From: Magnetococcales bacterium | GTDB lineage: Bacteria > Pseudomonadota > Magnetococcia > Magnetococcales > UBA8363 | Length of the DNA stretch: 47,949 nucleotides | Direction: 5' to 3' | Assembly (NCBI GenBank): GCA_015228815.1 | Contig: JADGCV010000014.1 | Span: forward strand, 42,104 to 90,052 | Shown here: positions 18,770 to 47,760 of the stretch, piece by piece | How the letters are laid out: the number at the start of each line of letters is the position of its first letter | Numbering within the stretch: the stretch's first letter is position 1 | Translations under genes and position numbers: made by a program | Notes under the pieces: model-generated | Told to the model about the DNA's origin: nothing | What the model saw: the letters and a program-made list of their open reading frames with translations, nothing else | Database searches by the model: none

Positions 18770-18862
18770 TCCCTGGTGCGACCTGCCGCCGACATCGCGG
18801 CCAGGAACTGTTGATCGGACATGAAAATGGTTTCCGGCCCAGGCGTTGACATGACCTGCCAT
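17696..18862 (+). repeat. direct repeat unit 1 of a 1.2-kb tandem duplication
   Basis: From the ATG at 17696 this stretch matches 18907-20080 almost base for base, at an offset of 1211. In the coding part only a few substitutions were seen after the first 30 bases, mostly silent. Homology continues past the stop codon through about 90 bases of intergenic DNA, with small indels. It ends at the sequence GACATGACCTGCC, which in unit 2 is the start of the phosphatase gene. Here those bases (18848-18860) are followed by unrelated sequence. Confidence 0.9.
18500..18603 (+). repeat. 12-bp in-frame tandem repeats in Rpn copy 1
   Basis: Three units near CAGCAGGGCATC (QQGI) are followed by five units near GAGCAGCGCGGA (EQRG). 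The last two EQRG units use different Gln and Arg codons, so the array has started to diverge. All units are 12 bases and preserve the frame. Confidence 0.9.
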
Positions 18863-18876
18863 CATAGAGCCATCCA

Positions 18877-31400: not shown

Positions 31401-34400
31401 AACATGCATATGGAACTCGGCATTTCCCTGGGAGGGGAAGGTTATCTGCCCAAGATCATGGGCGATTTCCACCTGACCTATGAAAACGGCAACAAGAACC
31501 AGTACGTCCAGAAGATCGAAAAATTCTTTTCCACCGGATACGACACCCTGTTCCACGTCGGCGCCCCCAATATATGGATGTCGGACATCTATCTCGATGT
31601 CGGTACCTTCTTCACCAAGTTCATGAATCCGATCGTCGGCTTCATCCAGGATGTGACCGACCCCATCATGCCGGTGATCGACGCCATCACCACCCCGATT
31701 CCGGGCCTTTCCGACCTCATGGGACGCGATTATTCGGCGGTGGACCTGGCGAGCGACATGTCCTCGTTGTTCGGTGGCATTTCCCAGGTCGATTTTCTCA
31801 TCGCCATCGTCAACATGCTCGATGTGATCGACGACCTGCCGACCGACACCGACGGCATGTTGATTCCGGTCTCGCAGGCCTTCGTCGTCAGCGGCACCAA
31901 GGATCGCAAACTTAATCTTTCGGCGCTGCCCTCGATCCCCGGCCTGCCCAACATCGATGTCCCGGTCGATCTTCCCTATGCCCAACTGGCCGACATCGCG
32001 GTCGAAGAGGATGGCTTCGAATTCAGCCTGAACATGGGGGTGGGCTGGCATGACGACACGACACTGCTCAGCATCTTCCGCGCCGAAATGCCGCCGCTCG
32101 CCTTCGATTTCGACCTGAACGCCGATGTCGCGGTTCCGGCCCCCTACATGGATGTCACCCCCTATGATTTTACCATCGATGGCCTCAGCGGCTCGTTCCG
32201 ACTGAACATCAAGGCGGGCTGGCAGGACTTGCACCTGTCAGACATCCTCTCGGGCGATTTTGCGCCGCGCTTCGATGTCACCATCGAGGTCCCCAACGGT
32301 TTCAACATCGATACCCAGGTGTTGCCCGTCCTGAAGGTCCTGTTGCCACGAATGACCTGGTCCATCGGCAGCCACACCTGGGTTTGGGCCTCGGGCGGCG
32401 AATTCGTCATCGACTGGCCCGAGGCTTTGTCGATGTTTGTCGATCCGAGCAATGTAAAGACCATCGACATGACCGGGGCCTCGTTCAACGTCAACCTGGG
32501 AAGCATCGATCCCTTTCTGCCGCAAATCCAGGTTCAATGGCCGACGGTGCGCTGGATCGGCCTCGGAAAGGAATTTGCCTGGGATCAGAGCCAAACGACA
32601 AACCTGGGTTGGTCGAGCATCATTTCCGACAATGGCCTCCTCTCGGCCCTGGTCGATCCCAACTGGACCATCACGGTCCAAATGCCCGATGTCTGGTTGC
32701 CGAGCATCAGCCTGTTCGACCTTCTGCCCGACATCGATTTCGACTTCGACTTTGGCCTGCCCGGACTGCCGTCACTCCCGGACATCAACATCGACCTTCC
32801 CGACATCGACATGCCGGGACAACAGACCGTTTCGCCGAAACAGGCGTTCGACGACTTCAAGAACAAGTTGAAAAAACCGGGCAGCGCCCTTAAATTTCCG
32901 ATTCTTGAGGATCCGGTCGGGTCGGTGATCGCCATGTTGACGGGAGAACATGCCGATCTGGTCACGTTTACCCCGAACAACCTGAATCTGGAAGTCGGTT
33001 TCCGCGTCTCCTATCCGGTCTATCCGCCGTTGTATGTCGGCCTGGGTGGCAGCATCAGCATCGATGTCGCCCTGACCCTGGGTTTTGATACCTACGGCAT
33101 CAGCAAGTTTTTCGACAGTCATAACCTGGTCGATATTCTCGATGGATTCTACGTCAGCGACAACATTGTCAACGGAGTGGACCAACCCGAAATCACGTTG
33201 AACGCCAAACTCTACGCCTTCGCCGAACTCAATGTGTTCGTCGCCCGCGGTGGCGTCGAGGGGGGAATCAAACTGGAAGGGACGCTCGACATCTATGACG
33301 AAAACAAGGACAACAAATACCGTGCCTCCGAACTGATCGCCGCCGTCTCCGAGGATCCTCTGGACGTGGTCGAAATGCACCTGCGCGGCTCAGCCTACAT
33401 CGCCGCCTATGTGGACATCAATGTCATTTTCGACTGGGTCCGGGTGTGGGAATGGACCTTCATGGATGTGACGCTGTTCGAGTGGGAACACGATCCGGGG
33501 GCGAAAAAACCGGTCCTGGGATCGATGGATGGATCGATCCTGACCCTGCACGCCGGTTCCACCATTGGCAGCATCGATGGGGAAGATTCCGTGAACAAGG
33601 GGGCCATCGATCGCAAACGCCGCAGCACCGACGACGGCAACGAATCCTTCACCCTGACCGGAAGTGGCGGTCTGGTCGAGATCAGCGCCATTCTGACCAA
33701 TGGCCAGACCTATACCAAGACCTTCGCCGGAGTGACCCGGGTCAAGGCCTTCGGCGGCGCTGGCGACGACACATTTGACGCCTCGGCCCTCGACCTGCCG
33801 GTGCTGTTCATCGCCGGCGACGGCAACGACACCTTGAAAGGCGGCTCGGGAGATGATGTCCTGATCGGTTCGGATTCAGGGACAGCCATCCTGATCGGCG
33901 GCGGCGGCAACGACCGGCTGATCGCCCGTGGGGGAACGACCGACATGCAGGGTGGGACGGGGGACGATACCTACCGCTTCCTGGAAGGATGGAACAGCGC
34001 CACCATCGACGATGCCAACGGCGACAACATGTTTGACTTCACTGCCCAAGGGAGCGCCGTCACCATCGACGATGCCTACTTCCAGGCCATGGAAGGGGGC
34101 AACCAGGTCACCTGGGACGCGACGACCTCGATCGATGTCATTCAGGGCGGTTCGGGAGATGACCTGATCGATTTTTCGGGGGATGCCGCCAATCTGCTGG
34201 TGACCCTCACCGGCACCAATGAAGGATGGGTCAAGGGAAGCGGCAGCGGCAAGACGCAAACCTCCTTCGACGCCACCACCCATCAGGACATGAAGGACGC
34301 GGGCGACAATGGCGGTCGCGGCTTCAAGTTCGAGGGATTCGAAAACATCATCGGTGGCCAGGGAAGCGATGTGTTCCGCCTCCAGGACGGTGCCTCCCTG

Positions 34401-37400
34401 ACCGGTTCGCTGTATGGCGACACCACCCCGGGCGCCTACCATGACGCCTCGGGCAATGAGGTCGCCAATGCCCGCAACACCATCGATTTTTCCGAATACA
34501 CCAACGCCATCACCCTGGATCTGGAAGGGCAGAGCGCCTTCGGCAGCGCCGGAGCGACGACGATCACCGTCCGCGGCTTTCACAATATTTTCGGCGGATC
34601 ATCGAACGATCGCCTGTCGGGCGATGGCCGCAACAACATGATCGTCGGCAACAACGGTACCGACATCATCGAGGGAAAATCGGCCCATGACCTCCTGGTG
34701 GCGGATACGTTTGTCACCTACAAAAACCTGATCGGCAGCCAGACCCGTCCCGCCGATGCCGATTTAAACAATGTCACCGATTATCTGACCCTCCAGACCG
34801 CCGGGGCCGCGGAATTCGGCGCCGCCTCGCGCAACTGGATCTGGAAGGGACAAACCCTGGAAAACAAGAGCCTTTCGACCGCCGGCAAACAAACCCTCAA
34901 GGGGGGCAGCGGCAACGATGTCATCCTGGGAGCGCTCGGCGGGGATGTCATCAACATCGGCGGCTCCGGCGAAGGCAACGACACCATCATGGCCGACCTG
35001 GGCCAGGTCGCGATCGATTTCAACTTCCGTTCCGCCCTGTCCGCCACGACCTTCGGCAACAAGGGGGGCGGCGGCGACACCATCTATCTGGGAACCGGCA
35101 GCAATCTGGTATTGGCGGGCAGCGGTCGGGACACCATCTACAGCGTCGATACGGCCAACAGTTTCAATATCATCCTGGCCGACAACGGCACCGTGCAATA
35201 CCGCACCACCGAGGTGACGGTTTCCGGACAGACCAAACGGACCTTCGCGGAGGTCTCGGGCCGGAGTCACCTTCTTGATTTCGTCGAAGCCCCGGTGGAC
35301 GAGACGGGAGGACAAGGAAATGACGATACCTTGAGCCTGGGAAGCGCCTCGGCCATCGTCCTGGGAGGGGCCGGAAAGGATGCCATCACCTTTACCGCCG
35401 CCACCTCCACAGGCGCCAACCATCGCTTCATCTCCGGCGATCACGCCCGAATCGATACCGATGCCAACGGCGGGGCGGTCTCTTTCAAGAGCCTCGATCT
35501 TCTCGAATCGACCGGTGACGCGGATGTGATCACGGTTGGCAACCAGAACGATCTTGCGGCGCGTTATCTGGGCAGCAATTACATCATCGCCGGCGCCGGA
35601 GCGGACAAGGTGCTGGTTTCGGCAACACTGGACGCCACCACCGGGGTGATCACCGTGGGGGCAGCCAACAGCACCGATGTCATCCTCGGCGACCACGGCG
35701 AAATCACCCGTTGGGATTCCGTCGCCGCGACGACCTTCAACCAACTCAAACAGGTCAAAAGCACCCAAACCAACCAGGGAGGCGCCGATCTGATCCAGAC
35801 CGCCAATGGCGGCAAGACCATCGTCGGCGGCTATGGTCAGGATTCGGTCACGGTCACCACCACCAGCAACTCGATTCGCCATGTTGTCGGTGACAACGGA
35901 CAACTTGAGTTTAACAGTGTCGGCGGCATGCAGACGATGACCTCCCTGGATACGGTAAGTACCACGGGTGGCAACGACATCATCGTCATCGCCCCCACGG
36001 CATCCACCCAGGACCTGGGACACAATTTTATTATTGCCGGTATGGGGGACGACAAGGTGCTCATTGCCGCCAGCCTTGATCCGGTCAGCGGCGCCATCAC
36101 CGCCAACGCCGCCAACGCCGTCGATGTCCTCCTCGGCGACAACGGCACGATCACCAACTGGGCCGCCTCCCCCGAGGTTCTTCTCCATAACCGCCAACAA
36201 GTCATCAGTACCCAGTTGAGCCTGGGAGGCAATGACGTTATTCATGCCGCTAACGGCGACAAAACCATCATCGGCGGTTTTGGCCAGGATACCGTGACCG
36301 TCACAACGACCAGCACCTCCATTCGCCAGGTCGTCGGTGATAACGGGCAGATTGAGTTTAACAGTGTCGGCGGCATGTTGAGCATGACCTCGCTCGATAC
36401 CGTCACCACCACCGGCGACAACGATGTCATCGTCATCGCCCCCACGGCATCCACTCAGGACCTGGGACATAATTTTGTCATCGCCGGCATGGGCGCCGAC
36501 AAGGTGCTCATTGCCGCCAGCCTCGATCCGGTCAGCGGCGCCATCACCGCCAACGCCGCCACCGCCGTCGATGTCCTCCTCGGCGACAACGGCACGATCA
36601 CCAACTGGGCCGCCACCCCCGAGGTCCTTCTCCATTACCGCCAGCAGGTCATAAGCACCCAGCACGACAAGGGGGGCAATGACCTTGTTCAGGCATCCAA
36701 CGGCGACAAGACCATCATCGGCGGCTACGGCCTGGATACGATCACCGTCACCACCACCAGCGCTTCGATTCGTTATATCGTCGGTGACAATGGCCAGATT
36801 GATTTCAATAGTGTCGGCGGCATGTTGAGCATGACCTCGCTCGATACCGTCACCACCACCGGCGACAACGATGTCATCGTCATCGCCCCGGCCACGACCA
36901 ATGAAAACCTGGGCCATCATTACATCATCGCCGGCATGGGCGCCGACAAGGTGGTCGTCGCCGCCAGTCTGGACCCGGTGAGCGGCGCCATCACCCCGAA
37001 CGGCGCCACCTCGATCGATGTCATTCTTGGCGACAACGGCACGATCACCAACTGGCCGTCTTCCCCCGCCGTGGTGATCAACGAACGGCAGCAGGTGATC
37101 AGCACCCAGTTGGACAAGGGTGGCAACGACCTGATCCAGACCGCCAACGGCGACAAAACCATCGTCGGCGGGTTTGCCCAGGATCGGGTGACGGTGACCA
37201 CCACCAGCACCTCCATCCGTCACATTGCCGGCGACAATGCCCGAATCGACTTCAACAGCGTCGGCGGCATGCTCTTCATGACCTCGCTCGATACCGTGGT
37301 GACCACCGGCGACACCGACATCATCGTCGTCGCCCCGACCGCCACCACCCAAAACCTGGGCGCCAACTATATCATCGCCGGCATGGCGGCGGACGTCGTT

Positions 37401-40400
37401 CTGGTCGCGGCCTCCCTTGACCCCGTCACCTCCGCCATCACCGCCAACGCCGCCACCTCGGTCGATGTCATCATCAGCGACAACGGCTCCATCGAAAACT
37501 GGCCCTCGACGCCCGCAGTCCTCCTCAACGTCCGCAAACAGGTTCTAAGCCTTGAACTGGACAAGGGTGGCAACGACCTCATTCAAACCGCCAATGGCGA
37601 CAAGACCATTATCGGCGGTTATGGGCAGGATGTCGCGATCGTCACCACCACCAGCCAATCGATCCGACACGTCGCCGGCGATAATGCCCGGATCGACTAC
37701 AATACCGCCGGGGGCATGCTCTTCATGACCTCGCTCGATACCGTGGTGACCACCGGCGACACCGATGTCCTCGTCATCGCCCCCACCACCACGACCGAAA
37801 ACCTGGGGACCAACTTTATCATCGGCGGCATGGCGGCGGACAAGATTCTGGTCGCGGCCAGCCTTGATCCGGTCAGTGGCGCCATCACCGCCAATGCCGC
37901 CACCTCGGTCGATGTCATCATCAGCGACAACGGATCGATCACCAACTGGCCTTCCACCCCCGCCGTCGCCCTCAACCTGCGCAAGCAGGTCGTCAGCCTC
38001 CAACTGGACAAAGGGGGCAACGATCTCGTGCAAACCGCCAATGGCGACAAAACCATCATCGGCGGCTACGGCCTGGATACAATCACCGTCACCACGACCA
38101 GCAATTCCATGCGCCTGATCATCGGTGACAACGGTCAGATCGATTTTGACACCGCCGGCGGCATGATCGACATGGTGACCCTCGATACCGTGGTCGAAAC
38201 GGGAGGAAACGATGTCATCAAGGTCGGCCCGACCGCGACCTCGGCCCACACCCTGGGGACCAATTTTATTTTCGGCGGCATGGGAAATGATGAAATCTAC
38301 ATCGCCGGCGCCTACAAGAACCCGGTCACCGGAAAACTGGTTGGCGGGGCCGCGTCGAGCGAAGACGTAGTGATCGGCGACAACGGCGAAGCCCACCGTG
38401 AAGCCTTGACCAATGTCATGTTGAAGGTGTTCACCAAGGTCAACGACAAGGGCGGCAATGACATCATTGCCGGCGGCAACGGCGGCAAGGTGGTCCTGGG
38501 AGGAATCGCCAACGACCAGGTCCTGGCCATCGACGGAACGCATCTGGTCATCGGCGACAATGGTGAATTCGATTATGACCTGGTAGCCAGGAATGGCCTG
38601 TTGCGCGACATGTATGCCACCGACATCACCCTGGGCGGGGCCGATACCATCACGCTCGGGGAAGGTTTTACCGTGGTGATGGGAGGCATCGGCGCCGATG
38701 TCGTGGACATCATCGCCCAAGGGATCGCCGCGGCGACCGGATTGCACCATGTCACCGGCATCCCGACTACGGTCGGGGCCCCCAACAGTGAAAAACCGGG
38801 ACGGACCGGTCGCTTCATCGCCGGCGACAACGCCCGCGCCCGCTTCGATGTCAAGGCGGGACTGACCGACTTTGAAACCATCGATGCCATTTCAGCGACG
38901 GGTGGCGATGACACGATCACCCTGGGCAAGGCGGATGTCGCCGCCGGGACCGATCTGGGATACCAGGTGGTCATGGGTGGCATGGCCGCCGATACCATCC
39001 TGGTGCGGCAGGATTACCGCAGTCAGGATGTAATCCTGGGCGACAACGGCGAACTGCACCGCAAACCCCTGGGATACGCCCATGTTTCCATCGGCAGCCT
39101 GGTGACCAATCTTGGCGGAACCGACGATATCCGCACTGGACGCGGCGACAAGATCATCCTCGGTGGTTTTTCCAGCGATGTCGTCAATGCGCGCACGGTT
39201 CGGGAAAGCGGCAAGGATGAACGGGTGATCGCTTTGGGCGATTCCGGACTTCTTTCCTACGATCTTGGTGGCGGCGGCACCCTTCAAAAGGTCGAAAGTT
39301 TGACCATCCAGTTCGGTGGCGCCGACACGGTCACCATCGGCGATGGTGATGTCACCTTCATCGGCGGTTATGGCAACGATACCCTGGCGGTGGATTCCTC
39401 GGAACTGGCCTTTCGCAGCGTCGCGGGCGACAACGCCCAGATCACCTTTGCCGCAACCGCCGTCGTCGCCGATCAGGCGGCAAGCCAGTTGAGTCTTCTG
39501 ACCCTGGACCTCACCGGGGTGACGGGCGGTGTGGACAACCTGAGAATCGGCCCGGTCGGAGGGATCAGCGGTGACCTGGGCGAGGTGGTCCTGGCGGCGG
39601 GCATGGGATCGGACACGGTCCGGATCTCGGGTGAAACGGTCAAGACGACCTTGCTGGGCGACAATGGCCAGATTCTCCGCGCCTCCGGTGTCGGCGGTGC
39701 CCGTCTTTCGGTCATCAGCCTGTTGCCGGAACAGGGAGCAGGCGATTTGATCGAAACCGTCGGCGGCGACCATGTCCTGGTCGGTGGCGCCGGCGCCGAT
39801 ACGTTGCGCGCCGGCAAGGGGATCGGAGTGGTGTTCGGCGACTCGGGACGCATCACCTATGACGCGGGTGTGATCCGTTCCGCCGCCAGTTCCGGCATTG
39901 CCCAGGGGGGCAACGACATCGTCGAATTGGGCGCGGTGGGAAGCAGCGATGGCCTGCAAATCTTCGTCGGCGGCTTCGGCGCCGATACCCTGAACATGCA
40001 ATCCCAGACCGGCAATGGCATTTCCGCGATGGAACGGGCCGTTGCGGGAGACAATGCCAGCCTCAATTTCGATACCAGCGGTCGTCTGACCGCCTTTGCC
40101 ACCGCCGACTCCGATACCTCCACCGGCGGCGCCGACATCCTGACCGTGATCATGACCGGCACGGCCCCCGCGAACACCCCTTTGACCGATCTCAACATCA
40201 TCGCCGGCGGCATGGGGGCCGATACCATCAATATTTTCGGGGTGACCCGCAGCATCGATGTGGTGGGCGGAGACAATCTTGACTATCGCCGCACCAGTCC
40301 CGACGCCTCCAACCTGTTCGGACAGCATATTTTCTTCGATGTCCTGCAACCGACGACCGGAGGCAACGATTCCATCCGCATCGGATCGGGCGACAAACTG

Positions 40401-43400
40401 GTCGCCGGCGGCGCCGGCGACGACCGCATCGATACCAGCACCCAGGAAGGGGATCGAAACATCATCTTCGGCGATGCCGGCGCCATCGCCTTCGATCCGG
40501 GCGGCAGCGGACGCCTGCAACAGATCGGTACCACCTCGGTCAGTACCGGAGGCCGGGATACCGTGGGCATCGGCGCCGGCGAAACCTACCTGATGGGGGG
40601 CATGGGGAACGATACCCTGACGGTCAGTGGCGCCGACAACGTGGTCCGGGTCGTCGCCGGTGACAACGCCCAGATCAACTTTGAAACCGCGACCGGCAGC
40701 GCCAACCTTGGAAAACCGATCCTGGTGCAAAGCACCGGGAGCGACACCGTCGATGCCTCATTGGTAGTCGATACCCTGACCCTGGGAAGCACCGGAACCA
40801 ACATGGTCCTCGGAGGTCCCGGTGTGGACACCCTATCGGGAAGCCGGGGTACAAGCCATTTCGTGGTCCCCGGAAGTGGTACCATCGATCCGATCAACCG
40901 CATCGTCAGTGTGGTCCTTCTCGGGCAATACAATGAAATGGGAATCACTGACACCACATTGGTCTATCCGCTTGCGTCCTCTGGAGGCTCCGGCGGCTCC
41001 AGTGGTTCGGGCGGCTCCAGCGGTTCGGGAGGAAGTTCCGGAAGCGAGGACACAACCGCCACCGGTACCATCACGGGAGAAGGAACCGTCGCCGAAGACG
41101 GTACGATGAGTGCTTCGGGAAATATTTCCTATCCGGCGCTCGATGGTGGTCTCGCCACGTTCGTCGCTTCCGAAACGGCGGGGACTTTCGGCACTTTAAG
41201 GATGCTGAGCAATGGCAGTTGGACCTATACCCTCGACAATGCTTCGACGGCGGTTCAATCGCTGGATTCTGGAGAAAACCCCGGCGAAATGTTTCTGGTC
41301 ACGACCGCCGACGGCAGCCAGACGACGGTCTCCATCACCGTCACCGGCGCCAATGACACGCCGCAATTTGCCGCCGTGACGGATGGAACCCTGACCGACA
41401 GCAGCGCGGAAGACGGTTTTGCCTCTCTGACACGCACCCTGAGCGCCACCGACGCCGATTCTGGAGACGACCTGGTCTTCGGCATCAGTGGCGGGACGGT
41501 GGTCGATGGATTGGCAACCCTGGCGGGGCTTTACGGCAACCTGAATCTGGATACCCATACCGGAGAACTCACCTATGTCCCCAACGCGACGGCGATCAAC
41601 GCCCTGACCGGCACGACCTCCGAATCGTTCACCCTGAGCGCCAGCGACGGGATCGCAACGGGAACGACGATTTTCACGGTCCATCTGGCGGGAGCGGACG
41701 ATGCCCCGACCCTGGGAGGGGCATTTGCAGGCGAGGTCATGGAAGATGGCGTAGTGACGGCACATGGATCCCTGTCGATTCTCGATGTCGATTCAGGACA
41801 AAGTGGATTCGTCGCCCAGAGTGCCGCCGCCGGAACTTATGGTTTATTCAGTCTGACCTCCAGTGGTGCCTGGACCTACAGTCTTGCCAACGAAAGCGCC
41901 CGGGTACAGGCCTTGGCCGGGGGCGAACGGGTCAACGACAGCTTTACCGTATCCAGCCTTGATGGGACGACCCGAACGGTCACGATCGCCCTCACCGGCG
42001 CGGCGGACACGGCTACCTTTGGCGGAACGGGCAGAGCGACGATGAGCGAAGATGGACCGACCCTGGCCACGGGAACCTTGACCGTCGTCGATGCCGATTC
42101 GGGGAGCGGCTCTTTCGTTGCCCAGAGCGACCGGGCGGGGACCTACGGCGCCTTCAGCGTCGATTCCACGGGAGCATGGCAATATCTCATGGCCAGGGAA
42201 GGTTCCGCAGTCCAGGGACTCGCGGAGGGGCAGACCGTCCAGGATACCTTCACCGTTGCCAGCCTCGATGGCACCACCACCACGGTCACGATCGACATCC
42301 AGGGGGCCAACGATGGCGCGACCATAGCAGGTGATCGTGGCGCCACGATTCTGGAGGATGGCGCCACATCGGCAAACGGGCGGTTGACGATTGCCGACCG
42401 CGACGCAGCCCAGGGGTTTTTCACAACGCAAACGGCAACCATGGGCCGGTTTGGCCAATTCAGCATCGATCGGACGGGAGAATGGAACTATGCCCTTTCC
42501 GGAGACGCCATTCAGGGATTGACGGCAGGGGAAATGGTCGCTGAAGTTTTTCAGGTAGCCAGTATCGATGGAACCACGACCGAGGTCACGGTGACGCTCC
42601 AAGGGGCTGACGATATGGCCATTCTTGGTGGTGAAAACGTGGGTCTGGTCACCGAGGATGCGTCTCCGGTCACCGGTGGTCGATTGACCCTGGTCGATCC
42701 CGATGTGGGACAAGGAGGATTCATTGCCCAGGCTGGAACGGTTGGACATTTTGGTCTGTTCGATCTGAACCCTGATGGAACCTGGGAATACCGTCTGGCC
42801 CTTGATGCCCCACGGGTGCAAGAGCTCAACGCCAGGACCCTGGTCGTCGATCTGTTTACGGTGACGAGCATCGACGGCACCGGTAGTGTCGTCACGATTG
42901 CGGTTGCCGGGAGCGGCGATCCGGCGATGATCGGAGGCGATGCAGGGGGAACAGTCACCGAGGATCGGACGCTTGAGACCTCGGGAACCCTGACCCTCGT
43001 GGATCCCGATCAGGGAGAATCGCGGTTTGAGGTCCAGACCGACACCGAGGGTACCTATGGTACGTTTACCATCGACGCCCTGGGACAGTGGAATTATTCC
43101 CTGGCCAACGATGCGATGACGGTTCAGGGATTGACGGAAAATCAAGCGGTTTCCGAAATTTTCACGGTGCGGAGCGCTGACGGAACGGTCCATGCGGTCA
43201 CCATCACGGTCCTGGGATCGAACGATGCCGCCACTCTGGGAGGGAATGTTCAGGGAACGGTCACCGAGAATCAGGTGATTCGCGCCAAGGGAGATCTGAC
43301 CGTGGACGACCTTGATGCCGGCGAGGCGGTGTTCCTCCCCCAAACCGCGACCCTGGGAACCTACGGTACCTTCAGCGTCGATGCCGATGGCCATTGGACC

Positions 43401-44921
43401 TATGATCTTGACCCGGCCAATGCAGCGGTCGAGGCCATGACGGCGGGAGAAACGGCACGGGACCTGTTCGAGGTGACGAACGCCGCTGGTGATTCTCTGG
43501 AAGTCTCGATCACGATCGCGGGCAGCAACGATCTGGCCATTCTCGGAGGGGCCAATAGCGGTACGGTAACCGAGGACGCAACGACGACCACGACCGGACG
43601 ATTGACCATCATCGATACCGACCATGGCCAGGCGGCCTTCCTGGTGCAGACCCAGACCGCCGGGCTTTACGGAACCTTGTCTTTGGAAAGGGACGGAGCC
43701 TGGAGCTACTCGTTGAACAATGCCGCGGCGACAGTACAAGCGCTGACCACGGGACAACAGGTGACCGACCGGTTTGTCGCCAGCAGCGCCGACGGAGGTT
43801 CCTCACTTGGCATCACGGTCACCATCAACGGTCTTGATGAACCCGTGGTGGTGGTCGAATCGCCCCAGGTTACCGCCGCTGCCGCGGCACAAGCGGCGCA
43901 AACCGCCACTGCCCAGGCGGTGTTGGCCGCATCGGCGTCACAGGCAACCGCGGCGACCACCACGGCGACCACCACGGCGACCACCACCACCATCTTCACG
44001 GGAGGGACCCAGGGCGCCACTGGCGCCAACCCCGGTGGTGGCACGACAGGATTGGTCATCAATACCTCAACCGCTCCGACAGGCGGGACCAACGCGACCG
44101 CACCGACAACGACAACCGGTCCCGGCAATGGAGGAAACACCACTTCCGGCACATCAGGCGGTCAGGCAGGCCGGAACGATTCAGGTCCAACCGGTGGCGG
44201 CATCGGAGTCGGCACCTCCGCCCCGGCCTCGGTGGAACCACCCCCACCCGTCACGTTGACGGTGGGAAACCAGGTTTTCTTCCAATCGCCGACGATCCAG
44301 TTTCCCAATGTGGTCCCAACATCAAGTCCCACGGTCACGTTGACCGAGGGTTTTTCGACAACAAGCGTTGGTATCGCACCCCAGCTGCAACAAGGTGAAC
44401 AGGGAACCGCGGAATTTCAAAATACCGGAGGAACCGGGTTCCAAATGCCGACAACGGTCACCCCAACCGTAGGCGCCACGGGTCCGACCACCACGCAGAC
44501 AGGCACCGAGGGTCCCTTTGGTGACACCAATACCGCCCCAGGAGGCGAACCTCAGGGGACGACCGAACCATTGACCGCGCCTCCCGCGGAAGGACAGCCT
44601 CCAACCACGGGTGAAGCGCCTGCCGAAGGCCAACCCCCTGCCGAGGAGGCGCCTCCCGCGGAGGGACAACCGCAGGCACGAGGACCGGGACAACCCGAAG
44701 GGACCCCGACCGCTGACAACACGGGAACAACGGAAAATCCTGACGCCACTGAGAATTCAGGCGAACCCATCGCCTTCAACGCGGCGACGGGGGCTGTCGT
44801 CGGTGCGATCGTGGCCTCGGGTCAGGGTTCGCGAATCACCTGGGACAAGGCGGCCCCCCCTCCTTCCACCAATACCCGCCGTATCGTTTCGCTCGGAGGA
44901 CGATCAATGCGCATGGGATGA
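22497..44921 (+). CDS. giant (7474 aa) LEPR-XLL/DUF4347/RTX/VCBS-repeat surface protein
   Basis: One uninterrupted frame encodes 7474 residues, with GGAGGG close to the ATG. The basic N-terminus carries the LEPR-XLL motif (VEAMEPRFLLSGEG, 41-53), followed by a DUF4347 domain at about 107-278 (VHVLSHGD, LLLYGCDIA). Residues about 280-2350 are beta-rich modules in several repeat families. Residues about 2350-3700 form a less repetitive, Asp-rich centre with EF-hand-like loops (DSNSDYI, DYNGDLQ, DENKDNKY). From about 3745 to 6110 lie RTX-type GGxGxD/GDN repeats, including a regular 149-residue array. A Ser/Gly linker leads to VCBS and cadherin-like repeats (about 6190-7120), then Ala/Thr- and Pro-rich tails with AEGQPP units. 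These parts are typical of calcium-stabilised exported adhesins. No classical Sec signal is seen. The C-terminal 14 residues are basic and unlike common RTX signals, so the export route is inferred. Confidence 0.93.
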   Translation: MAKDRILGKKNGIGRALKSLIQGSSRHRRVTAIRPRLLHVEAMEPRFLLSGEGLVLPPPVPEPDETLEAPLNQSTADRWNTSAVAAEHQNDSVGTQGEKAQTEGANEIIFVDPAVRNHETLLASALRSRPGQSEPGRVEVVVLDANRDGIEQMTMWLDGYQNLQAVHVLSHGDMAALRLGITTLNPTNLEQYRDQLAAWNVAMAPGADLLLYGCDIASGVQGETFVEQLSQLTGVDVAASTDASGSAEKGGDWMLEKATGTIETTPLQANDYNDLMAVVTPVTSGTTATTISSTGAFDAAEKLALQLNASSELSPTLPLVDLSFASLIKTNDGRSLGDIISFKTTSNTSVLDDYLATAGSHTMGGLMDRLGDYLNGIGDYSHLESLVNNAAGAPAISFTATDDVLDINLTLSREFYQRFGFGDDLKSLGFDFQTGQGIPLVANIHYAASLDFAGGTLEVTTLDAQVKAKSASLDTGAILGILDVTASGTMVFDTGKVEFQPIGPKTALEIKDPSDETFESADNLIEIKTGTVHNVKSNFHFDLTGTVGSTALSTLAGGTPHVDILFGDGTTAVPWSSIQSTPITVTASNFTQVQPFASLTSTQLVNMLQDLGTYLELLRDSGRFDALMPFTELKVGQALDFSKAINDVIDNQLATTLVSGLTASKAISPVLPGQFPLPSGNAAFDLYIKRPGDERVSTITITIDNGETSSFIHINQLAELIGQKIATAVNGLLAWSGDPFEIEESLKGGATIVGSDRSSEEQTLKIHASSGTYQLKLGSGGTLTGDISVSASPIEVQNALESVLGAGNVVVTGRPRHLHIEFVRSLGETDQSSLVVVPGSVTAGSLIDVYATEFTLGDDGRMWGKLNLAEANVGDFTILRVAPSSTVKVKQLTPGDDASEATQRLTIVHGGGSSFYLKGKRADNSDFTTAAIPGTATTSAIASALSAVLPGVTGLSVTDVGVDYAADNATKVFDIGFGKKDGVNYGAYPVMTVDTTTAGTWTSSVPAQAVISTHQQAVPAVGATPAKNEIQRFSIGNATGGQYSFGVSLGTLFFQSNAITLGSSAATIEAALVGMFQQGVPGFSDSDVNVTAVAGKANTFDIEFTGIWAAKDCPHLRLNTYALTSVAGSAYNPHTRLGFLAEGQDSTVNKVTTFDTFNEMMDRFQHAINTTLASGSFSVAPTYDSATKSLMFNVKFAPSAETLGVPLTFSSSIGDLSALSAETTLDLSTQTTFQSTIGFDFANLNTFGLRAGGAYTGTITANAANTGIVQLSASFPFSADATFTLNLDGESYDLTVAASNTTANTTRDDLIADFQTVLNGTSVVSGGLLSRLGFSTLGQAVTMTKNDSNQLQFVIKATVSSVQLTPSPLSSMVSLLGFKNMTAYPSAKAVTLASNGRLSAAATFNLKFDQTTPVTVTMAADASNTQTSDLVDDLNTAFAATNIAAHSHLGTGGKGFSNLGQVITAILRNGQIEIVTLSSKIASLQILIDGTNPATTELGFTPGQFATTNGAYVFLKDPVLGGSYSAVVHGQSGATPATLPTPGQATLGMLDITFDTLGADYQGSMNFELRNGLAGVAGDRISLNALFDSATAQESLLGLGGALQTSTTVAATGVPYQSNGELLRDVGLTVTVGSQELEVVVLRSATLGNTSVNDLAADVNAAIHTALVATLGSDPYAGHTFVTITNTGTAGAPKNVLTFAAPTTTLTLAANPAQIYNATTGVLLTDLRLSVTVAGLAQPVDVIVRTSRASTNTSLDDLVSDVSEALKSALNSAKNNSSDTTVKANLETLMAATDLVTRTGSVLTLKAGVVAAKEITLNNLAIKGRLLEGDYVTDLVFRNQAGTVGTLPTAKLELAGIGIRTPTGVSATGLNPITKITIDVSNIVDALAGSNPMTAVVVVPSDGLGNLTPFKDVSWSEVRTGLGHLGSLLGDLGALGSFGELGRALPVLGQSVSEVFDFSSRFKSVKTELETREGIGLQDLKSALAAGFGISEGAITLENDTTAGQEALRIIIPYRVLVNDSVPLDLIFNDQALLDLLSDAAKAQLAGLIGAIRELKDTEGTAKAQLNADITFNLALGVDLGNTSPNKGKLFLYDHVAGGSAGFSGDTGTFARLDAFSLNAAGMAFTSNQGIYSLGVTGGSASLSLAGTSGLMLDSDAADGASDGRLYLDAFAGLATADAKTLKSSNFDIIFDGSAEAVLPLTLSVSDDLGQLAIEQIDGFINPLPLGIMEVKFLNLGDTFAKMGGKTGFTLQESAEGSNSHTVISSQIVQAALPERPSSGNGTAVTTPEGAPVDNDNEAALVDPTLNPFFSSSDGSGATTTPGGITTGSSGLFSTTPQANPPSSGFDISLILPDIEYWQLELTVVLERALGPNCEPDEPVHGPLLFLLRDPTIVVNTVDKVLETIQKGLDAFSDVLSLPIIGDQLRDATQFVTDLRRNVVKALNDALSSAIDTYGGLDNALRMFMFDLLTTDSNSDYIIQSSEVNANPFLNFLQDYNGDLQVTPDDIVVEYLAGTGTPKIDPALADYLGVTQPSMIPAVLPGQRTAWVTSGKNVPNLDSHGDPILHADGTPCYIGDAGDIIIDPSLRAILDDISGAIDSMEATAGDLLGLIESTGHDKSFFDSLVNIVTFIADKVAQGYTYQSLLKDVFGAGVTASVLTDVLTEFVPSSGALAADAAATKVARLTNPNAIVVKASLAELKAAVKEKALHVGTEVALAQSTAIQFRMHLGQTYTPAIDLSFDIGIPGLPLSLELDGGIALELDWDLFFGFGIDIKDGFYLITNMPGTAGIGEITTYDPVDKGVATGIASNHHDVHIDNLWLVGKPTFTPAVKELSAQLNVFLAPGGGSGPARLNAELFVLNGTLTDNWDGWIKDNDTGIWGNGTDSMGRLSGSMSPTYGRSDSLFDGDTGADGSRTRLQLNLAVDLKDKGLFGISALSSLTNGRLTFSDLRTAKLSDLVAVEWDAKAQVNMHMELGISLGGEGYLPKIMGDFHLTYENGNKNQYVQKIEKFFSTGYDTLFHVGAPNIWMSDIYLDVGTFFTKFMNPIVGFIQDVTDPIMPVIDAITTPIPGLSDLMGRDYSAVDLASDMSSLFGGISQVDFLIAIVNMLDVIDDLPTDTDGMLIPVSQAFVVSGTKDRKLNLSALPSIPGLPNIDVPVDLPYAQLADIAVEEDGFEFSLNMGVGWHDDTTLLSIFRAEMPPLAFDFDLNADVAVPAPYMDVTPYDFTIDGLSGSFRLNIKAGWQDLHLSDILSGDFAPRFDVTIEVPNGFNIDTQVLPVLKVLLPRMTWSIGSHTWVWASGGEFVIDWPEALSMFVDPSNVKTIDMTGASFNVNLGSIDPFLPQIQVQWPTVRWIGLGKEFAWDQSQTTNLGWSSIISDNGLLSALVDPNWTITVQMPDVWLPSISLFDLLPDIDFDFDFGLPGLPSLPDINIDLPDIDMPGQQTVSPKQAFDDFKNKLKKPGSALKFPILEDPVGSVIAMLTGEHADLVTFTPNNLNLEVGFRVSYPVYPPLYVGLGGSISIDVALTLGFDTYGISKFFDSHNLVDILDGFYVSDNIVNGVDQPEITLNAKLYAFAELNVFVARGGVEGGIKLEGTLDIYDENKDNKYRASELIAAVSEDPLDVVEMHLRGSAYIAAYVDINVIFDWVRVWEWTFMDVTLFEWEHDPGAKKPVLGSMDGSILTLHAGSTIGSIDGEDSVNKGAIDRKRRSTDDGNESFTLTGSGGLVEISAILTNGQTYTKTFAGVTRVKAFGGAGDDTFDASALDLPVLFIAGDGNDTLKGGSGDDVLIGSDSGTAILIGGGGNDRLIARGGTTDMQGGTGDDTYRFLEGWNSATIDDANGDNMFDFTAQGSAVTIDDAYFQAMEGGNQVTWDATTSIDVIQGGSGDDLIDFSGDAANLLVTLTGTNEGWVKGSGSGKTQTSFDATTHQDMKDAGDNGGRGFKFEGFENIIGGQGSDVFRLQDGASLTGSLYGDTTPGAYHDASGNEVANARNTIDFSEYTNAITLDLEGQSAFGSAGATTITVRGFHNIFGGSSNDRLSGDGRNNMIVGNNGTDIIEGKSAHDLLVADTFVTYKNLIGSQTRPADADLNNVTDYLTLQTAGAAEFGAASRNWIWKGQTLENKSLSTAGKQTLKGGSGNDVILGALGGDVINIGGSGEGNDTIMADLGQVAIDFNFRSALSATTFGNKGGGGDTIYLGTGSNLVLAGSGRDTIYSVDTANSFNIILADNGTVQYRTTEVTVSGQTKRTFAEVSGRSHLLDFVEAPVDETGGQGNDDTLSLGSASAIVLGGAGKDAITFTAATSTGANHRFISGDHARIDTDANGGAVSFKSLDLLESTGDADVITVGNQNDLAARYLGSNYIIAGAGADKVLVSATLDATTGVITVGAANSTDVILGDHGEITRWDSVAATTFNQLKQVKSTQTNQGGADLIQTANGGKTIVGGYGQDSVTVTTTSNSIRHVVGDNGQLEFNSVGGMQTMTSLDTVSTTGGNDIIVIAPTASTQDLGHNFIIAGMGDDKVLIAASLDPVSGAITANAANAVDVLLGDNGTITNWAASPEVLLHNRQQVISTQLSLGGNDVIHAANGDKTIIGGFGQDTVTVTTTSTSIRQVVGDNGQIEFNSVGGMLSMTSLDTVTTTGDNDVIVIAPTASTQDLGHNFVIAGMGADKVLIAASLDPVSGAITANAATAVDVLLGDNGTITNWAATPEVLLHYRQQVISTQHDKGGNDLVQASNGDKTIIGGYGLDTITVTTTSASIRYIVGDNGQIDFNSVGGMLSMTSLDTVTTTGDNDVIVIAPATTNENLGHHYIIAGMGADKVVVAASLDPVSGAITPNGATSIDVILGDNGTITNWPSSPAVVINERQQVISTQLDKGGNDLIQTANGDKTIVGGFAQDRVTVTTTSTSIRHIAGDNARIDFNSVGGMLFMTSLDTVVTTGDTDIIVVAPTATTQNLGANYIIAGMAADVVLVAASLDPVTSAITANAATSVDVIISDNGSIENWPSTPAVLLNVRKQVLSLELDKGGNDLIQTANGDKTIIGGYGQDVAIVTTTSQSIRHVAGDNARIDYNTAGGMLFMTSLDTVVTTGDTDVLVIAPTTTTENLGTNFIIGGMAADKILVAASLDPVSGAITANAATSVDVIISDNGSITNWPSTPAVALNLRKQVVSLQLDKGGNDLVQTANGDKTIIGGYGLDTITVTTTSNSMRLIIGDNGQIDFDTAGGMIDMVTLDTVVETGGNDVIKVGPTATSAHTLGTNFIFGGMGNDEIYIAGAYKNPVTGKLVGGAASSEDVVIGDNGEAHREALTNVMLKVFTKVNDKGGNDIIAGGNGGKVVLGGIANDQVLAIDGTHLVIGDNGEFDYDLVARNGLLRDMYATDITLGGADTITLGEGFTVVMGGIGADVVDIIAQGIAAATGLHHVTGIPTTVGAPNSEKPGRTGRFIAGDNARARFDVKAGLTDFETIDAISATGGDDTITLGKADVAAGTDLGYQVVMGGMAADTILVRQDYRSQDVILGDNGELHRKPLGYAHVSIGSLVTNLGGTDDIRTGRGDKIILGGFSSDVVNARTVRESGKDERVIALGDSGLLSYDLGGGGTLQKVESLTIQFGGADTVTIGDGDVTFIGGYGNDTLAVDSSELAFRSVAGDNAQITFAATAVVADQAASQLSLLTLDLTGVTGGVDNLRIGPVGGISGDLGEVVLAAGMGSDTVRISGETVKTTLLGDNGQILRASGVGGARLSVISLLPEQGAGDLIETVGGDHVLVGGAGADTLRAGKGIGVVFGDSGRITYDAGVIRSAASSGIAQGGNDIVELGAVGSSDGLQIFVGGFGADTLNMQSQTGNGISAMERAVAGDNASLNFDTSGRLTAFATADSDTSTGGADILTVIMTGTAPANTPLTDLNIIAGGMGADTINIFGVTRSIDVVGGDNLDYRRTSPDASNLFGQHIFFDVLQPTTGGNDSIRIGSGDKLVAGGAGDDRIDTSTQEGDRNIIFGDAGAIAFDPGGSGRLQQIGTTSVSTGGRDTVGIGAGETYLMGGMGNDTLTVSGADNVVRVVAGDNAQINFETATGSANLGKPILVQSTGSDTVDASLVVDTLTLGSTGTNMVLGGPGVDTLSGSRGTSHFVVPGSGTIDPINRIVSVVLLGQYNEMGITDTTLVYPLASSGGSGGSSGSGGSSGSGGSSGSEDTTATGTITGEGTVAEDGTMSASGNISYPALDGGLATFVASETAGTFGTLRMLSNGSWTYTLDNASTAVQSLDSGENPGEMFLVTTADGSQTTVSITVTGANDTPQFAAVTDGTLTDSSAEDGFASLTRTLSATDADSGDDLVFGISGGTVVDGLATLAGLYGNLNLDTHTGELTYVPNATAINALTGTTSESFTLSASDGIATGTTIFTVHLAGADDAPTLGGAFAGEVMEDGVVTAHGSLSILDVDSGQSGFVAQSAAAGTYGLFSLTSSGAWTYSLANESARVQALAGGERVNDSFTVSSLDGTTRTVTIALTGAADTATFGGTGRATMSEDGPTLATGTLTVVDADSGSGSFVAQSDRAGTYGAFSVDSTGAWQYLMAREGSAVQGLAEGQTVQDTFTVASLDGTTTTVTIDIQGANDGATIAGDRGATILEDGATSANGRLTIADRDAAQGFFTTQTATMGRFGQFSIDRTGEWNYALSGDAIQGLTAGEMVAEVFQVASIDGTTTEVTVTLQGADDMAILGGENVGLVTEDASPVTGGRLTLVDPDVGQGGFIAQAGTVGHFGLFDLNPDGTWEYRLALDAPRVQELNARTLVVDLFTVTSIDGTGSVVTIAVAGSGDPAMIGGDAGGTVTEDRTLETSGTLTLVDPDQGESRFEVQTDTEGTYGTFTIDALGQWNYSLANDAMTVQGLTENQAVSEIFTVRSADGTVHAVTITVLGSNDAATLGGNVQGTVTENQVIRAKGDLTVDDLDAGEAVFLPQTATLGTYGTFSVDADGHWTYDLDPANAAVEAMTAGETARDLFEVTNAAGDSLEVSITIAGSNDLAILGGANSGTVTEDATTTTTGRLTIIDTDHGQAAFLVQTQTAGLYGTLSLERDGAWSYSLNNAAATVQALTTGQQVTDRFVASSADGGSSLGITVTINGLDEPVVVVESPQVTAAAAAQAAQTATAQAVLAASASQATAATTTATTTATTTTIFTGGTQGATGANPGGGTTGLVINTSTAPTGGTNATAPTTTTGPGNGGNTTSGTSGGQAGRNDSGPTGGGIGVGTSAPASVEPPPPVTLTVGNQVFFQSPTIQFPNVVPTSSPTVTLTEGFSTTSVGIAPQLQQGEQGTAEFQNTGGTGFQMPTTVTPTVGATGPTTTQTGTEGPFGDTNTAPGGEPQGTTEPLTAPPAEGQPPTTGEAPAEGQPPAEEAPPAEGQPQARGPGQPEGTPTADNTGTTENPDATENSGEPIAFNAATGAVVGAIVASGQGSRITWDKAAPPPSTNTRRIVSLGGRSMRMG
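24778..25900 (+). repeat. three divergent beta modules of the 'Q-x-L-x-I...G-x-Y/F-x-L' type in the giant protein
   Basis: Protein segments at about residues 761-840, 900-1002 and 1024-1130 share one pattern. Each starts near EEQTLKIH, ATQRLTIVH or EIQRFSIGN and continues with a Gly-rich strand. A helix follows (IEVQNALESVLG, SAIASALSAVLPG, ATIEAALVGMFQQ), then a second half with a Val/Asp strand pair. The same sort of module (EVQxLTxxG...GxFxLxF...AALxAL) is common in very large exported proteins of several phyla. The three copies are diverged at DNA level, so they are old. Confidence 0.6.
26280..27950 (+). repeat. second family of diverged modules (T-x-N-x-x-x-DDL-x-x-D-x-N) in the giant protein
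   Basis: At least four segments share a strand pair followed by a conserved turn and helix: ANTTRDDLIADFQTVL, TQTSDLVDDLNTAF, GNTSVNDLAADVNAAI and TNTSLDDLVSDVSEAL. Spacing is roughly 300 to 450 bases and the copies are diverged. They sit between the Q-x-L modules and the central region and are probably stalk-like beta domains. Confidence 0.6.
35568..38252 (+). repeat. six tandem 447-bp (149-aa) RTX-type repeats
   Basis: The start of the conserved LGxNxIIxGMGxDK segment falls at 35568, 36015, 36462, 36909, 37356, 37803 and 38253, giving five intervals of exactly 447 bases and one of 450. Each unit encodes about 149 residues with GGND, GGFGQD and VxGDNG calcium-loop motifs and a conserved GGML-x-MTSLDTV strand. 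Neighbouring units share identical stretches of 60 or more bases (for example around 36377 and 36824). The array therefore grew recently or is kept uniform by recombination. Looser repeats of the same kind extend to about 40830. Confidence 0.92.
40975..41050 (+). repeat. Ser/Gly-rich linker repeat
   Basis: Short repeats of GGSS and GSGG codons give a flexible linker that separates the RTX-type region from the VCBS region of the giant protein. Confidence 0.8.
41070..43845 (+). repeat. eight VCBS repeats plus one cadherin-like domain
   Basis: One VCBS unit (41070-41370) is followed by a cadherin-like domain (about 41370-41690: TLSATDADSGDDLVF, LDTHTGELTYVP) and then seven consecutive VCBS units. 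Their conserved L/F/I-GG positions fall at 41712, 42018, 42324, 42624, 42930, 43236 and 43542, a period of 306 bases (102 residues) with one of 300. Each unit has the pattern VTEDG, GxLTxxDxDxGQ, GTYGxF, GxWxYxL, VQxL, FTVxSxDGT and VTITxxGxND. Unlike the 447-bp array, the units differ substantially in sequence. Confidence 0.92.
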
Positions 44922-45000
44922 TATATTATAAACAAAGAGGGGCCATGGCTATCAAATCGATGCTACGGAATTGGAGTGCAATCCTCCCAGGGATCAGTTC

Positions 45001-45442
45001 ATGTTGCATTCCTTAAGGCTGAAAAATTGCAAGGCTTGGGAAGATACCGGAAACATCTTCTTGAAGCCGGTCACCGTATTGCTTGGCACCAATTCCTCTG
45101 GGAAATCGTCACTTATCCAGGGCTTGTTGCTCCTGAAACAGACGGTTCAATCGCCGGGCCGCACCATTCATCTGAATCTGGGAGGAGACGAGGCGAACGA
45201 TCTGTTCAATTTTGGTACTTTTTCCTCGATCTTGAAGGATGGAGCAAAGGACAGGCAATATTTCCAGGTGGCTCGCGGAAATGAAGGTTGCCGATAAACT
45301 TTATGTTCGTCAAATAGGTCGATCCAGCCGATATGAGGTCATTGTTCAACGCAACGAAGTCGCAGCCAATCTGCACGACGTCGGCATTGGAATTTCCAAG
45401 GTATTACCAGTTGCCATGTCGTTCTGGATTGTGACTGGCTGA
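45001..45442 (+). pseudogene. decayed AAA-family (DUF3696/OLD-like) ATPase gene
   Basis: Frame 1 from the ATG at 45001 encodes an N-terminal P-loop segment: LRLKNCKAWEDTG, then Walker A GTNSSGKSS, then LLLLKQTV. It stops at 45297. A second frame around 45250-45442 encodes the piece normally found near the end of the same family: WLAEMKVADKLYVRQIG, a strand, then DVGIGISKVLPV. The middle of the protein and the Walker B/C-terminal part are missing. The gene therefore carries both an internal deletion and a frameshift. Intact relatives are several hundred residues long. The region is less GC-rich than its neighbours, consistent with acquisition and decay. A TTG at 44971 is a possible upstream start. 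Confidence 0.75.
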
Positions 45443-45567: not shown

Positions 45568-45873
45568 ATGACCGCATCCGTGGAAGAAGCCAAGATCACT
45601 GCCCCCACCACTTCAACCCCCGCCACCCAAATTGTCTGGGACGATAGCCAGATGCAGACAAGTTATGCCAATGTTTGCAATGTGTTGGGAACACGGGAGG
45701 AAATCATGGTTTTGTTTGGCGCCAACCAGGCCTGGCAGGCGGATCAGAAGGAGGTCAAGGTGATGCTCTCCAACCGGATCGTGCTCAATCCTTATGCGGC
45801 CAAGAGACTCCAGACGCTGTTGGAGATGGGTCTGCGCGAGTATGAATCCCGCTATGGCGTGTTGAAAATCTGA
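45568..45873 (+). CDS. DUF3467 family protein
   Basis: The ATG at 45568 follows GAAGGA by 5 bases and gives 101 residues; the open frame extends upstream to a TTG at 45466 with no site. After a Thr/Pro-rich start the protein shows the DUF3467 pattern: IVWDDSQMQTSYANVCNVLG, EEIMVLFGANQAW, then VKVMLSNRIVLNPYAAKRL and a final LREYESRYG. The family consists of short single-domain cytoplasmic proteins of unknown function. Here the gene lies 18 bases upstream of the GAF-HlyD gene on the same strand, so the two are probably co-transcribed. That arrangement hints at a link with the export machinery. Confidence 0.85.
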   Translation: MTASVEEAKITAPTTSTPATQIVWDDSQMQTSYANVCNVLGTREEIMVLFGANQAWQADQKEVKVMLSNRIVLNPYAAKRLQTLLEMGLREYESRYGVLKI

Positions 45874-45891: not shown

Positions 45892-47760
45892 GTGACGGAA
45901 CAGGCACTTTCGACGCAACGGGCCGACCCCTGGTTGACCCTGGGCCGGGATGATGACGCTCGTGCCCACGCCACCTGGCTCGAATGTCTGGTGGCGGGGA
46001 TGGGTGGTGGCCTTCAGGAAGCGGTCCTGGTACTTGAGGATCCAGTTTCCAGAGGATTTCACCCGGCGGCGGTGTGGCCTGCCGAAGGGGTGGTCAGTCC
46101 CGATCTGGCACAACTGTCGGAACAGGCGTTGGAAAAGCGGATTCCCCTGACGGCCTATCGTGGACGGGGCTTGATGGCATGGCTCGTCGAATACGACGGC
46201 GCGGTTCGCGGGGTGGTGGCACTGGCCTTTGCCGGAACCGTGCCACGCCATGCCGTTTCCTGGCTGCGCTGGGGTCAGGGCTGGCTGGAACGCGCCTGGC
46301 GCGAAGAAGATGGCCAGGCGGAAGCGGAATTAAGGGAACGCCTTCTCCTGGCGCTGGATCTGACCATGGTTGCCCTGGAAGCGGCCAACGCCGAGGCGGC
46401 GGTGCATGCGGTGGCGACCGAGGCGGCGGCCCGCCTGGAGTGCGATCGGGTATCGGTTGGATTTCTCAAGGGGTCGGAAATCCGGTTTGCCGCCTTGTCC
46501 CACTCGGTGGATGTGGCCCGCCGCATCGATTTGATCCATGCGATCGTCGCCTCGATGAACGAGGCCATGGAACAGGCCACTCCGATTCATGTCGGCCTAT
46601 ATACCCTGCCCGGAAATGCCTCCCACCCGAACGACCCAGGGGAACCGAACAATCCGGGACATTCCGACTGGATCAATATACGCGAACATCAACGTCTGGT
46701 GCGTGATTTTGGATCCGAATCGGTATTGTCGGTCCCCTTTGCCGCGGGAGACAACGACACCCGACGGATGGGGGTTTTTCTGTTCGAGTGGGCACAGGCT
46801 GTTGCCGAGGTCCGACTGCGGCAAGCAGAGACGTTGACACCGATTCTGGGACGGGTTCTGTTGAACCGGCGCCGTGTCGAACGAAGCTTATACGAACGCT
46901 TGTTGGAAGGGACAGAGGAAGAGGGTCAGCAATCGACCGGTCCATCGGGCAGGCGGCGAAAGTTGCTTGCTGCCCTGAGTCTGGCCGTGACCTTGTTTTT
47001 TTCCGTTACCGAGGGAGACTACCGACTGTCGGCGACTGCCAGCCTTGAAGGAGGAATACGTCGCGTCGTCGTCGCCCCGTTCGATGGCTATGTCGCATCG
47101 GCGCGGGTACGGGCAGGACAGGTGGTCCGCAAGGGAGAGGAACTGGCGCGATTGGACGATCGAGATATTCGTCTGGAGATTTCACGTTGGACAAGCCAGC
47201 AGGCGCAATACCAGAAACAGACCGATGACGCCCAGGCACAACACAATCTGGCGCAGATTCAGATTGCCCTGGCCCAGGCACGGCAGGCGGCGGCCCAACG
47301 TGAATTGTCCGAAGCCATGCTTGCCCGTGCCAGGATCATTGCCCCCTTTGACGGGGTTATCGTCAGCGGTGACCTGTCACAACATTTGGGCGGTTCCCTG
47401 ACCAAGGGACAGACACTGTTTGAAATCGCCCCCCTGAATGCCTATCGCGTGGCCCTGCTGGTCGAGGAATTCGACATTGGGCAGGTAGCCGTCGGCCAGA
47501 AAGGAGAATTAATGCTGGCCGCCCTGCCGGGTAGAACGTTTCCATTTCACGTATCCCTGGTCACCCCCGTCGCCACCGTCAGCGACGGACGCAACCAGTT
47601 TCGCGTCGAGGCGACACTCGCGGACGGCGACGAACGGTTGCGCCCGGGAATGGAAGGAGTCGGCAAGATCGATATTGGCCGCGAACTCCTGATCTGGATC
47701 TGGACCCACCGCTTCCTGGAATGGTTGCGGCTGCAAACATGGTCCTTATTGGGCCTTTGA
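45892..47760 (+). CDS. GAF-domain/HlyD fusion, periplasmic adaptor of an export system
   Basis: The 622-residue frame opens with GTG at 45892, without a clear ribosome-binding site; the next in-frame ATG is at 46000. About 355 cytoplasmic residues come first, including a GAF-like module at about 154-320 (LDLTMVALEAANAEAAVHAV, CDRVSVGFL, SVLSVPFAAGDN). One membrane helix follows at about 358-376. A HlyD-type adaptor then starts with a lipoyl-like half (VVVAPFDGYVASARVRAGQV). It continues with a Gln/Ala-rich coiled coil (about 425-490), the second half (ARIIAPFDGVIVSGDLSQ) and a beta barrel. A hydrophobic tail ends the protein. HlyD adaptors bridge inner-membrane exporters and outer-membrane channels. 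The giant surface protein is the obvious candidate cargo, but its dedicated use here is inferred. Confidence 0.88.
   Translation: MTEQALSTQRADPWLTLGRDDDARAHATWLECLVAGMGGGLQEAVLVLEDPVSRGFHPAAVWPAEGVVSPDLAQLSEQALEKRIPLTAYRGRGLMAWLVEYDGAVRGVVALAFAGTVPRHAVSWLRWGQGWLERAWREEDGQAEAELRERLLLALDLTMVALEAANAEAAVHAVATEAAARLECDRVSVGFLKGSEIRFAALSHSVDVARRIDLIHAIVASMNEAMEQATPIHVGLYTLPGNASHPNDPGEPNNPGHSDWINIREHQRLVRDFGSESVLSVPFAAGDNDTRRMGVFLFEWAQAVAEVRLRQAETLTPILGRVLLNRRRVERSLYERLLEGTEEEGQQSTGPSGRRRKLLAALSLAVTLFFSVTEGDYRLSATASLEGGIRRVVVAPFDGYVASARVRAGQVVRKGEELARLDDRDIRLEISRWTSQQAQYQKQTDDAQAQHNLAQIQIALAQARQAAAQRELSEAMLARARIIAPFDGVIVSGDLSQHLGGSLTKGQTLFEIAPLNAYRVALLVEEFDIGQVAVGQKGELMLAALPGRTFPFHVSLVTPVATVSDGRNQFRVEATLADGDERLRPGMEGVGKIDIGRELLIWIWTHRFLEWLRLQTWSLLGL

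Follow-up and report, generated by a model that had tools for sequence, protein, structure and literature searches.

We favor the view that the GAF-HlyD protein encoded near the end of the window (the whole 47,949-nucleotide stretch of Magnetococcales DNA analyzed here) is the inner-membrane part of a dedicated, type I-like module, that the cargo of this module is the neighboring LEPR-XLL/DUF4347 giant, and that the GAF pair of the adaptor provides a docking or control surface. Judged from the genes themselves, a role as export adaptor for the giant is likely, and the pairing of giant and module is a genomic one. The initial annotation of this DNA had suggested that a ligand- or nucleotide-responsive domain on the adaptor could gate export of the giant, an interpretation that is partly supported as a whole; it missed the published description of the fusion (PMC4452313) as well as the module itself, in which the adaptor works with a protease-like M50/PqqD-HlyD protein, a small HlyD protein and, in many cases, a SecA-like ATPase.

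The adaptor reading frame opens with GTG, and its features are collected with those of its neighbors in Table 1. A full-length AlphaFold2 model, built from a 12-sequence alignment (mean pLDDT 78.8; pTM only 0.48), contains two alpha/beta domains (residues 20-138 and 144-331), a membrane helix and a periplasmic adaptor region with a short hairpin; the N-terminal part folded alone reached a pTM of 0.76. There are 353 residues before the helix (residues 354-372), in agreement with the approximately 355 first estimated, and their placement in the cytoplasm holds as well, because GRRRK precedes the helix (positive-inside). Since 35 homologues in the alignment, ranging from Magnetococcales to Planctomycetota, keep the same architecture, the joining of GAF (assigned by structure) to HlyD (assigned by Pfam), which had also been claimed at the outset, is not a matter of chance. 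Conservation climbs along the protein, from 0.36 in GAF1 through 0.44 in GAF2 and 0.59 in the HlyD region to 0.60 in the C-terminal helix.

Table 1. Features of the adaptor gene and its neighbors (window positions)
Feature	Positions	Strand	Basis
GAF-GAF-TM-HlyD adaptor gene, 622 aa	45892..47760	+	ORF; HlyD_3/HlyD_D23; AF2 model; homologues in 79 loci
Probable GAF-like domain 1, aa 20-138, weakly conserved	45949..46305	+	Model secondary-structure order; tandem GAF Foldseek matches; conservation 0.36
GAF domain 2, aa 144-331; signature S203 H204 M222 E224 Q228 P282 E299	46321..46884	+	Z 15-17 vs solved GAFs; Pfam GAF in relatives; conservation
Inner-membrane helix aa 354-372 (predicted), GRRRK just before	46951..47007	+	Model helix; hydropathy maximum at 358
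Periplasmic HlyD/MacA-like part aa 374-599, short alpha hairpin 424-478	47011..47688	+	Pfam; model; fold comparison
C-terminal aromatic helix aa 600-619 (WIWTHRF..W), conserved	47689..47748	+	Invariant W602 and W617 (35 relatives)
DUF3467 protein, 100 aa, directly upstream of adaptor	45571..45873	+	PF11950 E 5.9e-25; same place in many loci
Probable cargo: giant protein of 7474 aa with DUF4347, an RTX repeat and cadherin-like repeats	22497..44921	+	Pfam DUF4347 1.4e-51; HemolysinCabind; Cadherin_4
LEPR-XLL motif of giant, aa 38-59	22608..22673	+	NF012209 E 3.4e-6; 26.4 bits vs cut-off 17

Because profile searches of the PDB with the N-terminal alignment matched GAF domains weakly, the assignment was made by fold comparison. 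The window adaptor, a divergent copy, itself has no Pfam match to GAF (PF01590/PF13185) at E<=1 and does not reach the gathering score; several relatives exceed that score, L071 and L077 among them, with values up to 1.6e-15 over two stretches in L071. In the full model, residues of about 139-331 superimpose on solved single GAF domains with Z scores of 15-17 (145-160 residues aligned, rmsd 3-4), including 3p01 at Z 16.8 (rmsd 3.8 over 160 residues), 5hl6 at Z 16.1 and 3trc at Z 15.8, and the N-terminal model scores about 12-13 against GAF domains. The GAF-like fold that had been noted is thus borne out, and residues 144-331 are, as modeled, a clear GAF domain. Residues 20-138 probably form a second one: their predicted elements follow a GAF-like order, tandem-GAF proteins are the best Foldseek matches of the N-terminal model, and the pair aligns with structures of PDE5, PDE6 and adenylyl cyclase, so that the single fold first recognized is probably an undercount. 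The adaptor shares two consecutive GAF-like domains with PDE2/5/6 and the cyanobacterial adenylyl cyclase, but it is only about 10-14% identical to them, its output is that of an export adaptor, and it lacks the motif NKXnFX3DE.

The linkage with giant proteins, also anticipated in the initial annotation, is supported. In 51 loci one outer flank or both extend for >=8 kb, and in 43 of these a giant open reading frame (>=1500 aa), or a frame carrying a LEPR-like motif, lies no more than 5 kb from the adaptor, whereas a frame of >=1500 aa occurs in 2 of 20 control stretches (evenly spaced, 20 kb each, all from one genome, the relative G018), and a LEPR-like motif was found in the first 150 residues of none of the 180 control frames. 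Many giants run off the ends of the stretches, and a few cases (L116) may be inflated by antisense frames where the DNA is rich in GC. The opposite outcome, a fusion mostly far from giant genes, was looked for and did not occur. When whole genomes were searched with the LEPR-XLL model, strong matches lay beside GAF-HlyD genes in G000, G005, G006 (two), G018 (two), G025, G029 (four), G031, G040, G041 and G061. In four of four annotated plasmid records the order is giant, GAF-HlyD, M50/PqqD-type gene; two of these giants are annotated LEPR-XLL, the upstream genes of the Pseudosulfitobacter and Pontibrevibacter plasmids (38.8 and 31.8 kb long), and Mesorhizobium and Methylosinus carry giants of 31.6 and 26.5 kb upstream of GAF-HlyD. 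Beside second GAF-HlyD modules on G006:C115, G029:C1 and G018:C1 there are LEPR-XLL frames of about 19,400, 15,400 and 15,250 aa, very large even among bacterial giants.

Across the phylum, a profile of the GAF part detects the family in 36 of 398 genomes, with 23 of 194 and 5 of 197 genomes positive in two orders; the whole adaptor also matches 14 plasmid records, mostly from Alphaproteobacteria, and viral contigs yielded no relative. Of the 79 loci, 74 have an M50/PqqD-HlyD gene adjoining the adaptor and 53 have a SecA-like gene; of the five loci where the M50/PqqD-HlyD gene is missing, two, including the window, are contig ends. As far as the stretches reach, the order in L055-L057 and L064-L069 is giant, (DUF3467), GAF-HlyD, M50/PqqD-HlyD, SecA-like, small HlyD, TpsB, TpsA. 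HExxH is intact in 73 of the 74 M50 partners, and GEGKT and DEAD are preserved in the SecA-like protein; both could therefore be active enzymes. The M50 partner resembles the site-2 protease/PqqD metalloproteases of the daptide or YydH/LiaK type in its PqqD-like N-terminus and its M50 core with HExxH; unlike them, it stays below the NCBIfam cut-offs, has an HlyD-like part fused to it, and is linked with giants, not RiPP peptides.

The SecA-like ATPase appears to be optional in the module. Eleven loci (L118, L124, L167, L175-L182), from nine genomes that are >=94% complete, are accompanied by no secondary SecA anywhere in the genome, where the only SecA matches are the canonical SecA and short, incomplete ones within frames some 700 aa long. 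Most of these loci run GAF-HlyD, M50/PqqD-HlyD, small HlyD, giant, and the giant carries motifs such as VIEALEPRILYSAD or IESLEPRLLMSADP close to its N-terminus. A giant or a LEPR-XLL frame lies within 5 kb in 10 of the 11, and it is therefore the giant, not SecA, that is the more constant companion of the module. The SecA-less order ending in a LEPR-XLL giant can be read in L166, L167, L168, L175, L176, L178, L180, L181 and L118.

In the window the order is giant, decayed ATPase remains, DUF3467, GAF-HlyD adaptor, and the contig ends 192 bases past the adaptor gene. The remains (44971-45442) are those of an AAA-type ATPase gene (MLHSLRLKNCKAWEDTGNIFLKPVTVLLGTNSSGKSSL...) broken across several frames; the relative L053 has an intact counterpart of 429 aa at the same place (7110-8399), and L057 has a similar gene. 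Elsewhere in the window (17486-19980), a neighboring pair of similar genes matches FliH-like and Rpn nuclease/transposase models weakly; sensor kinases and a response regulator enclose the pair. Peptidase_M50-HlyD and secondary SecA_DEAD genes accompany the adaptor in its genome (G000) without adjoining it, although they are adjacent in the close relatives L055-L057: the M50/PqqD-HlyD, SecA-like, small HlyD and TpsB-type outer-membrane protein genes lie together on contig C22:45464-52485 (L018:5465-12486), and the complete set is consequently not one operon here. On C22 the M50 gene is followed by further, different genes, and in the close relative L053 (DCbin4) unrelated genes follow the adaptor, so the split is probably real. 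The DCbin4 adaptor likewise has no partner genes next door, and hence the operon seems to be split in the lineage of the window genome. Three further loci of this genome (L019, L020, L021) pair shorter HlyD proteins (451-474 aa) having no Pfam match to GAF with M50-HlyD proteins, L020 including an OEP outer-membrane efflux protein; these pairs may be related to the GAF-HlyD design in reduced form.

In the arrangement that we envisage, the cytoplasmic GAF pair, which is predicted to be joined through one membrane helix to the periplasmic HlyD region, belongs to one of three HlyD proteins that would together build a single periplasmic conduit. The M50/PqqD protein may recognize, and perhaps cut, the LEPR-XLL leader, and the SecA-like ATPase, where there is one, could push the chain. 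PqqD-like domains bind leader peptides in the RiPP field, and by analogy we infer that such binding might extend to LEPR-XLL. On the cytoplasmic side, the GAF pair would serve the adaptor for docking or control by engaging a partner that every module has, either the M50/PqqD-HlyD protein or the cargo or its leader, and would possibly respond to a putative ligand. Docking as the main task of the pair is a serious possibility to which we commit ourselves only tentatively. Speaking against such a role, conservation of GAF1 is poor, and the signature of GAF2 fades in some SecA-less loci (L124, L177), where the GAF part may therefore be merely structural.

The GAF domains might instead bind a small ligand and so open or close export, which is possible but somewhat doubtful. 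The fold found by structure comparison is compatible with such a gate, and GAF2 has family-specific residues (S203, H204, E224, Q228) that could line a candidate pocket. Among the 35 relatives S203, E224 and P282 are invariant and H204, Q228 and E299 nearly so. A regulatory or sensory role has been suggested before, and the GAF gene is separately expressed in Methylobacterium (both PMC4452313). A GAF fold by itself, however, shows no function, and a regular-expression search for the PDE-type cyclic-nucleotide motif NKXnFX3DE found it in none of the 35 relatives, so that cyclic nucleotides gain no support as the ligand; PDE-type binding was rejected as a candidate.

It is unlikely that the GAF pair serves to dock the SecA-like ATPase. 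The frequency of the SecA-like gene (53 of 79 loci) would suit such a role, as would a GAF signature that is on average weaker in loci without this gene and lost in L124. Against this, the full signature occurs in several SecA-less loci (L166, L167, L168), the genome that holds L167 (G495) having one SecA match in all, and docking of SecA cannot be the sole role of the GAF domains. A tracking of the GAF signature with the SecA-like ATPase looked promising with two loci and failed with more.

Returning to the export adaptor that we prefer, Pfam recognizes HlyD families only (HlyD_3, HlyD_D23; residues 392-587, in the C-terminal half). The protein passes as an HlyD/RND_mfp adaptor (TIGR01730, 102.7 bits vs a cut-off of 94.9; PF13437, 75.1 vs 22.2) and falls below the cut-off for classical type I HlyD (TIGR01843, 54.7 vs 208.65 bits); a recurrent ABC transporter, the mark of a classical type I secretion system, was not found, the recurrent partners being M50/PqqD-HlyD and SecA-like proteins. 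The HlyD part most resembles MacA/AcrA-type adaptors, and the C-terminal half has the barrel-sandwich, alpha hairpin and beta-barrel of MacA/AcrA/EmrA (HlyD/RND_mfp). Unlike these, it is combined with a large cytoplasmic GAF pair and a conserved C-terminal aromatic helix, and M50/PqqD-HlyD and SecA-like partners stand in place of an ABC/RND/MFS pump. That the adaptor serves small-molecule efflux or the neighboring TpsB/TpsA pair, with the giant gene as a bystander, is improbable despite this resemblance and despite the TpsB/TpsA genes that come after the module in Magnetococcales, since RND, MFS and ABC pumps are not recurrent neighbors of the module (read by eye, only L181/L182 have an ABC transporter gene, at a distance of a few kb), TpsB/TpsA profiles matched nothing in the non-Magnetococcales loci examined, and the giant association spans both SecA-plus and SecA-less gene orders.

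The GAF-HlyD fusion, its partners and the idea of a sensory role were already published in 2015, and the window gene is a further member. Kamneva et al. described GAF proteins with HlyD/biotin_lipoyl domains in a conserved locus with an M50-HlyD protein, a secondary SecA_DEAD ATPase and a further HlyD protein, in Proteobacteria and Planctomycetes (e.g., MexAM1_META1p2402 of Methylobacterium extorquens); they proposed the sensory role, noted that some loci have partners elsewhere in the genome, and left the broader biological role of the locus "completely unknown" (PMC4452313). The window adaptor is the same fusion, and Peptidase_M50-HlyD, SecA_DEAD and HlyD are common to both descriptions, an independent recognition of the module that favors our reading; the published locus is a conserved cluster, whereas the partner genes of the window genome are on another contig. 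The earlier locus was anchored on SecA, which puts the SecA-less variant out of sight of that approach, and no cargo was named: the words giant, large protein, adhesin and cadherin are absent from the main text of PMC4452313. The present analysis links the module with a LEPR-XLL giant and suggests that it can do without SecA. Among open-licence PMC papers we found nothing beyond PMC4452313 on LEPR-XLL or DUF4347 with this module, and neither the cargo link nor the SecA-less variant.

A distinct, LEPR-XLL-dedicated secretion system, in which a PqqD/M50-HlyD protein would read and cut the leader, a SecA-like motor would be optional, and a GAF-controlled adaptor would gate export on a cytoplasmic signal, is a bolder proposal and, taken in full, rather unlikely. 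The SecA-like motor can be seen as optional, and GAF residues for mutation are named. The LEPR-XLL giants, whose frames in relatives reach about 19,400 aa, give the locus described in 2015 a concrete, testable cargo.
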